Assembly (NCBI GenBank): GCA_913064945.1
Contig: CAJYAN010000017.1
Location: forward strand, 1-64,000
DNA from: an uncultured Gammaproteobacteria bacterium
GTDB taxonomy: Bacteria; Pseudomonadota; Gammaproteobacteria; UBA6429; Thiohalophilaceae
Direction of reading: 5' to 3'
DNA: 64,000 nt
Below the pieces are notes generated by a model. The model ran no database searches and was not told the origin of the DNA. It saw only the letters and a list, made by a program, of their open reading frames with translations. The translations under genes were made by a program, and so were the position numbers. Below, piece after piece: positions 53,139 to 62,084 of the stretch. The first letter of the stretch is position 1, and each line of letters opens with the position of its first letter.

Positions 53139-53188
53139 TTTAGCCTTTTATTTTATTATTTCAATGGCTTCGTGGGGCAGACCCCGCT
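53139..53188. repeat. REP-like repeat, copy 1
   Basis: TTTAGCCTTTTATTTTATTA-like AT stretch followed by CGTGGGGCAGACCCCGCT (53171-53188), which folds as GGGG-CAGA-CCCC. The whole block is near-identical to 58315-58362. The same palindrome core recurs at 59921, 60520 and 62062. Confidence 0.75.
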
Positions 53189-57456: not shown

Positions 57457-58244
57457 TTACTGATTAAAGGGTAAATAAATCTCATCGGGTTCTCGTAGCA
57501 CATGTGCATCACTGGCCTCTGCAATATCCCGATACTGTGCTTTAAATCCAAGGCCAGCCTTAACTCCTTGTACAAAATCACTACCACCAATAGCAATACT
57601 CTGTGTCCAGGCAGCATCTCGTTGTATTTCACCAGACGCAAGTGCTGCTTCAACCCAATGGCGGTGCAGGTCTTGCACCTGATAAAATTCAGTCATGCCT
57701 AACAACCCAAGCAACTTTTGTTGATCAATAATCGCATAGCGCTCAGGCGGGGCCTGGATTTCACGAAAGCCACAGGTATCCCAATCCGCCGGATGTTTAA
57801 CAACCCCTGCCCTTACCATATTCAGATCAATGTAGACCATACAACGTGCCAGGTACTCGTCCGTATCGACTGCCGTCGCATGATAACGGTCTTCCCAATA
57901 GGCACCTTTGCGCCTCTTTCTTTGGTTGTATTCCTGTGCCGTACGACCGGCGATGAGTTGCATGCTTTGAGCGATTTCACCCTTGCCCCGGTCATGTACG
58001 AGTAAATGAATATGATTGGAAGTCACAACGTAGTTCAACACACAAAGGCCATAACGTTTCTTTGCCTCAAACAACCAATTGCGCCAACGCTGGCGGTCTT
58101 TGGTAAATTTGAGCAGGAATTCTTTCTGGTGACAGCGGAGTGTTTTGCACATGGATGTGCTTATGCCGCGAAGCCCATGGACGGGCGAGAGTGGCGCATA
58201 TGCCAGATGTGGCCGGGGATAAAGTATCGATTCGCACGCGGCAT
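57457..58244 (-). pseudogene. REP-associated tyrosine transposase (RAYT), 5' interrupted
   Basis: Y1-type transposase of the RAYT/IS200-like family. Catalytic parts are intact: TSNHIHLLV (HxH) and the Tyr in GRTAQEYNQR. The natural start is ATG 58244 after AAGGAGGA, giving MPRANRYFIPGHIWHM, the usual RAYT opening, but this frame meets TAA at 58163-58161. The open frame carrying the catalytic part starts at 58278 and is shifted relative to it. From ATG 58244 to the codon for the conserved Cys (58134) is 110 bp, whereas an intact gene would need 57, so 53 bp are extra. The insertion is the repeat at 58138-58192. Translation of the catalytic part from an inner start (for example ATG in MCKTLRCHQK) remains possible. 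Confidence 0.75.
58138..58192. repeat. Double-hairpin insertion within RAYT copy A
   Basis: Plus strand GCACATGGATGTGC (hairpin 1), linker TTATGCCGCGAA, then GCCCATGGACGGGC (hairpin 2). Possible 5-bp flanking duplication GAGTG at both ends. Structure is like the insert at 59931-59982 and 60530-60581, with different stems and the same ATGGA loop centres. Confidence 0.65.
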
Positions 58245-58278
58245 AGCGCTTCCTCCTTAAAGCTATCATTTCATCCAT

Positions 58279-58362
58279 GAAATGAGCCGTTTAAGCCTCT
58301 ATTTGGCCTATATTTTAGCCTTTTATTTTATTATTTCAATGACTTGCGTGGGGCAGACCCCG
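58279..58362. repeat. AT-rich tail plus REP-like palindrome, copy 2
   Basis: The region upstream of RAYT copy A ends in GCGTGGGGCAGACCCCG (58346-58362). The AT-rich stretch from 58315 matches 53139 and 60494. In copy B the equivalent place carries an insertion. Confidence 0.7.
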
Positions 58363-58489
58363 GCATGTTCGAAGCGTCGAATAATTGCTTATATGGCATC
58401 AATACGTAATCGATTTAATTCGTTACGTACGTCCGACTTGGTACAGCACCTTATTAGAAAGAATCGCTCTCTGACCCGGGTTTTTTCAC

Positions 58490-59768: not shown

Positions 59769-59920
59769 GCGGTCAATAAAAAGCGCCGGTATCTCAGGTG
59801 CGGTCCCGTAGCTCCATACCAGAGGAGGTTTACCCAGAACCTTTCTATGAACGTGCAAAGCCTATAGGTCGATTATTTTACATTTTATCCACATGATATG
59901 GCCTCATGTCGAGGTTATAT

Positions 59921-59995
59921 GACTTGCGTGGGTTTTGTACATGGATGTACTTATGCAGCGTGTATATGGATATACATACGCTGTCAGACCCCGCT
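59921..59995. repeat. REP palindrome with double-hairpin insert, left copy
   Basis: 75 bp. The REP core CTTGCGTGGG...CAGACCCCGCT is split by about 52 bp containing GTACATGGATGTAC, TTATGCAGCG and TGTATATGGATATACA. Identical at all 75 positions by eye to 60520-60594, in the same direction. Confidence 0.85.
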
Positions 59996-60423
59996 CATAT
60001 CCAGATCAATGTAGACCATACAGCGTGCCAGGTACTCGTCCGTATCGACTGCCGTCGCATGATAGCGGTCTTCCCAATAGGCACCTTTGCGCCTCTTTCT
60101 TTGGTTGTATTCCTGTGCCGTACGACCGGCGATGAGTTGCATGCTTTGAGCGATTTCACCCTTGCCCCGGTCATGCACAAGTAAATGAATATGATTGGAA
60201 GTCACAACGTAGTTCAACACACAAAGGCCATAACGTTTCTTGGCCTCAAACAACCAATTGCGCCAACGCTGGCGGTCTTTGGTAAATTTGAGCAGGAATT
60301 CTTTCTGGTGACAGCGGAGTGTTTTGCACATGGATGTGCTTATGCCGCGAAGCCCATGGACGGGCGAGAGTGGCGCATATGCCAGATGTGGCCGGGGATA
60401 AAGTGTCGATTCGCACGCGGCAT
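59996..60423 (-). pseudogene. Truncated RAYT copy B
   Basis: Near-identical to the first part of RAYT copy A (ATG 60423, TAA at 60340-60342, then the catalytic frame with HxH and Tyr). It ends abruptly after the equivalent of MVYIDL, where it joins the left 75-bp repeat. It carries the same double-hairpin insertion (60318-60371), so the insertion is older than the duplication. The C-terminal third is lost. Confidence 0.85.
60318..60371. repeat. Double-hairpin insertion within RAYT copy B
   Basis: Same insertion as 58138-58192, same stems and position. Confidence 0.65.
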
Positions 60424-60519
60424 AGCGCTTCCTCCTTAAAGCTATCATTTCATCCATGAAATGGGCCGTTTAAGCCTCTATTTGGCCTATATTTTAGCCT
60501 TTTATTTTATTATTTCAAT

Positions 60520-60594
60520 GACTTGCGTGGGTTTTGTACATGGATGTACTTATGCAGCGTGTATATGGATATACATACGCTGTCAGACCCCGCT
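60520..60594. repeat. REP palindrome with double-hairpin insert, right copy
   Basis: Identical to 59921-59995, so RAYT copy B is enclosed by direct repeats of 75 bp. The AT-rich leader to its left matches that next to copy A and at 53139. Confidence 0.85.
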
Positions 60595-62061: not shown

Positions 62062-62084
62062 ACTTGCGTGGGACAGACTCCGCT
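62062..62084. repeat. REP-like palindrome, copy 5
   Basis: ACTTGCGTGGGACAGACTCC then GCT: a variant of the REP core, sitting directly upstream of the ribosome site of the gene at 62050. Confidence 0.65.

Follow-up and report, generated by a model that had tools for sequence, protein, structure and literature searches.

The window, the 64,000-nucleotide stretch of gammaproteobacterial DNA analysed here, carries a RAYT gene (Y1/HUH transposase) at 57457..58244 on the minus strand that is interrupted after codon 15-16. Its native start, ATG 58244, has a well-placed ribosome-binding site, AAGGAGGA (58251..58258, minus strand), that is conserved in close relatives. The frame opened by this ATG begins with MPRANRYFIPGHIWHMRHSRPSMGFAA and, as the initial annotation had noticed, runs into a stop: it ends after 27 codons at TAA 58163-58161, within the linker of the inserted unit described below. 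The catalytic part is in another frame (58137-57460), where it picks up at RCHQKEF (CGC at 58137), reads RCHQKEFLLKF onward without an internal stop, and remains open to 57457. The protein is a Y1_Tnp family member with HUH (PF01797 in Pfam, E 1.8e-11), and the NHIHLLV and YIDLNMVRAG stretches of the conserved RAYT core are kept in 13 aligned proteins; the catalytic Tyr is presumably the one typical of the family. With its disrupted N-terminus, the protein scores 65.4 bits (E 4.9e-18) against the NCBIfam RAYT model NF047646, below the curated cut-off of 80 bits. None of its close homologues elsewhere in its own genome is intact, the only close copy having the same insert, and the remaining homologues reach at most 31% identity over the matched part. 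A further RAYT in the same genome (G000:C19:18159-18611) matches the family strongly and contains an internal TAG.

A cognate repeat flanks the gene. The RAYT-associated terminal REP, upstream at 58343..58363 (minus strand), is empty and reads GGGGTCTG-CCCCACGCAAG, and further empty copies occur in the window near 53 and 62 kb (53167-53187 and 62063-62083). Just 5′ of the RAYT ribosome-binding site, a 20-nt leader palindrome, TCATTTCATGGATGAAATGA (58266..58285, minus strand), has a core, CATGGATG, that is the reverse complement of the CATCCATG core of the inserted unit; a near-identical leader is found in a relative, G038 (locus L024).

RAYT sequences were gathered from the family (40 genomes) and from the class (369 genomes). 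In all 12 relatives readable with full N-termini, exactly 18 codons lead from the start to the invariant Arg-Cys-His, i.e., 54 bp versus 107 bp in the window, and the net excess of 53 bp bears out the earlier estimate. The search for empty sites that had been suggested thus succeeded, as these 12 intact relatives, from both in and out of the family, all have an unoccupied site. The inserted 53 bp correspond to 58197-58145, or to the same segment shifted by 1 bp, the exact joint being ambiguous because of a run of A's, and the unit itself is 58195-58143. Removal of the insert restores the codons ATA/ATG ACA CTC CGC TGT (I/M-T-L-R-C-H), which keeps a Thr shared by every relative. The best fit is therefore a clean insertion that neither duplicated nor removed any bases.

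The unit found in the RAYT gene (58143..58195, minus strand; covariance model R1) folds as two hairpins, and the two palindromes with their TTATGCCGCG joint are as first described. From 5′ to 3′ on the minus strand, it consists of HP1 (58195-58165), the linker ATAA (58164-58161), HP2 (58160-58147) and AAAA (58146-58143). It scores 76.4 bits (E 5.5e-16) with R1, this copy being part of the training set of the model, and a second variant, nested in REPs and absent from the training set, scores 47.5 bits (E 2.8e-9). The core pattern was expected 0.00 times in shuffled windows; hence, the unit is not a chance occurrence. The initial annotation had advised searching the genome for the 53-bp sequence. 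Pattern and model searches of the 3.2-Mb genome gave four clear copies, and the four matches to the pattern GCATAAG-nn-CATCCATG-nn-CAAAA all fall inside the window: the unit in the RAYT gene, its counterpart in a truncated second copy of that gene, and two of the second variant in REP loops.

Beyond this genome, a search through 84,980 species genomes identified at least 80 loci with the core pattern, almost all of them gammaproteobacterial. Their alignment defines a 53-nt unit made of HP1 (base GCCGC/GCGGC, with a TCCA-type loop), ATAA, HP2 (GnnCATCCATGnnC) and AAAA. Its stems covary, with 97.7% of cells paired and 40 two-sided changes versus 0 to 3 in slid controls, in a sample chosen by a pattern in which part of HP2 is set and its two variable positions and HP1 are free. 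The unit in the RAYT gene has this architecture, these stems and the conserved CATCCATG core, and thus belongs to the family. Using the covariance model, we detected units in 73 of the 369 class-mates; with 15 candidates scored per genome, several class-mates contain at least 15. Units occur head to tail with an exact 53-nt period at G163:C1:1269415-1269520, G163:C1:367980-368085 and G082:C4:102675-102780, and such tiling is also seen in loci L071 and L081. Eight unit-bearing loci, searched against Rfam down to E 1, matched no family at gathering score, the 171-bp region had no match in the plasmid collection, the core pattern was absent from viral contigs, and queries by sequence fragments or by description returned no account of the family in the searchable, non-subscription literature. 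The family thus looks undescribed, though the general kind, small palindromic non-autonomous repeats, is known. A match in Treponema (L065) has no HP1 and was set aside as probably due to chance. A metagenome-assembled genome labelled Riflebacteria contains many units with a different HP1 (L087, L098, L106, L107, L115 and L123), which reflects either horizontal spread or contamination of that assembly.

These data show that the insertion of a distinct, widespread repeat into the RAYT gene is real. As the gene is split by a repeat of a widespread family, one sort of mobile DNA has landed within another. The suggestion of a second, distinct mobile repeat is thereby upheld, given a family of its own, unlike the REP of the RAYT, and relatives with an unoccupied site.

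The observation of an interrupted gene was confirmed; what had been overlooked is a second, 3′-truncated RAYT copy (59996..60531, minus strand), 98.5% identical to the first and carrying the same unit at 60374-60322. It ends abruptly after YIDLDM and has filled REPs on both sides. The whole segment (59919-60594, minus strand) resembles a cassette, with the truncated RAYT between direct repeats of about 77 bp. The two copies, which differ at eight sites, have the insert in common, so that insertion most likely predates the duplication, which is the simplest order of events. Six substitutions separate the two insert-bearing copies over the 106 codons of the catalytic part; five are silent, and the one replacement lies beside the truncation point. 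If 0.21 to 0.34 of changes are silent under neutrality, the probability that at least five out of six are silent is about 0.002 to 0.02. This bias hints that the catalytic frame may still have been selected after the insertion, on the evidence of six changes, which are few and could also reflect gene conversion.

Because of the insert, the native start no longer leads into the catalytic frame. Since translation from the conserved ribosome-binding site ends after 27 codons, we think that the RAYT has probably lost all or most of its activity, although some translation may still restart. The modelled structure of the intact G038 protein (pLDDT 83 overall) has its first strand, beta-1, at residues 13 to 19. 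An in-frame ATG at 58152, in the HP2 loop and 8 nt past the stop TAA, could restart translation and give some N-terminally truncated product; this predicted protein (pLDDT 75) lacks the first strand and begins with 11 disordered residues. In the 273-codon frame that starts at ATG 58278, partly unit-encoded residues replace the first strand, and no ribosome-binding site is visible.

Possibly, though with less than even odds, the interrupted RAYT still works, through a 27-codon leader followed by a catalytic protein that is re-initiated at ATG 58152 or started upstream at ATG 58278, and the unit tunes RAYT activity down. From ATG 58278 onward the catalytic frame runs without a stop, the unit itself supplies a stop and a closely following restart, the divergence of the two insert-bearing copies is biased toward silent changes, and the second copy arose after the insertion, all of which speak for residual function. 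On the other hand, the strong conserved ribosome-binding site serves ATG 58244 only, and none is evident at either alternative start; the fold loses its first beta strand or has it replaced, the model of the truncated protein is weaker than that of the intact one, and the selection signal is thin. The earlier statement that the insertion breaks the protein thus holds for the native start, which is cut off, and for the first beta strand, which is lost; it holds less well for the catalytic frame, which is open and has diverged mostly silently. Given five silent changes versus one replacement, "broken" is likely rather than proven. Self-regulation, which the initial annotation had also raised, is conjectural.

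The two copies of the second variant place the family in another component of the RAYT system. The filled REP on the 5′ side of the second RAYT copy (60518..60594, minus strand) reads AGCGGGGTCTG-unit-CCCACGCAAGTCAT, with the variant unit at 60583-60532, and that on the 3′ side (59919..59996, minus strand) contains the one at 59984-59933. Both thus hold the same variant unit in the REP loop, and comparison of filled with empty RAYT REPs in the window reveals no duplication. In genome G364, both REPs flanking a RAYT are filled with the unit; the upstream one, of the GTAG type, has an empty syntenic counterpart (GGCGGACATG-GTCCGCC) in the genus-mate G266. This filled-empty pair was read by eye because automatic alignment misplaced the gap. 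Units within the hairpin loops of other units were also recognized by eye in loci L206, L209 and L219. Outer stems of at least 7 surround 4 of the 65 units checked, window copies included, versus 20 of 3190 shuffled pairs, and this excess is limited to a few REP-nested cases. Nesting of the unit is therefore real and concerns a minority of copies. Outer stems as a general feature of the units were rejected, as the 80-locus sample did not exceed shuffled controls, the REP-nested cases apart.

A terminator-like hairpin directly follows 39 of 81 units, versus 16 of 1620 random positions. Among loci L046 to L125, such hairpins adjoin the AAAA side of about half of the units; therefore, when read on the other strand, these units start immediately past a terminator T-tract, as is clear in L156.

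It is improbable that the insert is the RAYT's own REP, placed by the RAYT into its own gene. REPs are believed to be moved by RAYTs, and a RAYT (E ≤1e-10) is present in 63 of the 73 unit-carrying genomes versus 162 of the 296 others (odds ratio 5.2, P 2e-7, from raw counts uncorrected for phylogeny, genome size or completeness). However, the terminal repeat of this RAYT, GGGGTCTG-CCCC, is unlike the unit, so that the idea of a hairpin pair entering its own gene finds no support if the RAYT's own REP was meant. REPs are single imperfect palindromes with a GTAG or CGTC tag, whereas the unit, with its consensus GCCGCTCTCGCACATCCATGTGCTCCGCGGCATAAG-HP2-AAAA, has neither tag and consists of two hairpins in direct orientation. 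Furthermore, a RAYT lies close by at only 1 of 80 unit loci, and no RAYT was detectable in 10 of the 73 unit-carrying genomes, including G177, which is 100% complete and has nine units. An own REP as the insert was rejected on sequence.

Less probable still is a DDE-type MITE with a short target duplication, a reading that rests on the presence of CACTC on both sides of the insert, taken earlier as a 5-bp target duplication (CACTC/GAGTG). The left CACTC belongs to the unit, which begins with it (consensus GCCGCTCTCG), and an unrelated unit copy in L122 likewise reads GCCACTCTCG and lacks a CACTC on the right-hand side. As filled and empty REPs differ without duplication and the unit lacks terminal inverted repeats, the MITE reading is refuted on present data. 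The least credible account is an assembly error, which near-identical RAYT copies 2 kb apart can provoke, or an ancestral feature of the RAYT lineage, against which stand the eight differences between copies that have a common insert, its absence from intact relatives within and beyond the family, and the unit copies in many genomes.

The best explanation, to which we assign a probability of roughly 75%, is that a non-autonomous hairpin repeat that favors other hairpins inserted into the RAYT gene and crippled it or strongly reduced its activity. A 53-nt HP1-ATAA-HP2-AAAA repeat would have inserted into codons 16-17, and the RAYT would have been inactivated or strongly reduced as a result. The family would spread as single-stranded hairpins with a preference for hairpin targets, namely REP loops, loops of its own units and the base of terminators. 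Three observations fit this explanation less well: within the RAYT gene the unit did not enter any clear hairpin loop, with only a weak 4-bp hairpin 4 nt away; the silent-biased divergence of the insert-bearing copies hints at continued selection on the catalytic frame; and the excess of outer stems over shuffled controls is confined to a few REP-nested units.

The unit makes no protein; therefore, some enzyme presumably acts in trans. The leading suspect is a RAYT or another HUH transposase, and the carriers without a RAYT, together with the scarcity of RAYT genes near unit loci, keep the RAYT a suspect, not a proven mobilizer. More speculatively, and rather unlikely in our estimation, the unit would be a single-stranded DNA parasite that seeks out hairpins, is moved in trans by RAYT-type enzymes, rides composite REPs, and here silences or tunes its own transposase. 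If so, it nests in REP loops and has hit the very transposase on which it depends.

Several known systems resemble parts of this one. Many units adjoin terminators, like group IIC introns, which sit just past the T-tract of intrinsic terminators; unlike those introns, the 53 nt contain no ribozyme or reverse transcriptase. The mitochondrial double-hairpin elements of Allomyces are two-hairpin mobile units that can land in genes, alike in architecture and different in lineage and sequence. Like REPs, REPINs and BIMEs, the units are small dispersed palindromes, non-coding, mostly intergenic and gammaproteobacterial. In contrast to these repeats, which are mobilized by RAYTs (Nunvar 2010, PMC2817692; Bertels and Rainey 2011, PMC3116915), the units have no GTAG/GTGG head, are made of two different hairpins in direct rather than inverted arrangement, tile head to tail at 53 nt, rarely lie beside a RAYT gene and can occupy REP loops. 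CGTC- or GTAG-tagged REPs inside larger palindromes and REPs that interrupt genes have been described (Di Nocera 2013, PMC3733652), whereas at this locus the REP itself serves as the host palindrome, and what nests in it is a double hairpin without a tag. The same study reports TIRYTs, RAYT-like genes flanked by other terminal repeats with a GGGGWSAS motif (PMC3733652), which is close to the GGGGTCTG of the RAYT in the window. Rickettsia palindromic elements, as that article cites them (PMC3733652), encode amino acids within the host protein; on that account the unit is similar in being a palindromic repeat in a coding gene and differs in that its insertion shifts the frame.

Small palindromic repeats are abundant in bacteria, and a mobilizer is known for only a minority of them. 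At this locus, one repeat family occupies both the gene of a repeat-moving transposase and the terminal repeat of that transposase. The wider family, present in 73 of the 369 sampled class-mates and without a match in Rfam, offers natural pairs of filled and empty sites and suggests a preference for hairpin targets that is directly testable. Its nesting in REPs and its adjacency to terminators are of specialist interest. At two further loci, the units stand within longer palindromes, as if these were REPs with the unit as their loop: GTAGGTTCGAA...TTCGAACCTAC in L013 (genome G007), and GTCAGACT...AGTCTGAC, followed by CTAC, in L014 (genome G011).
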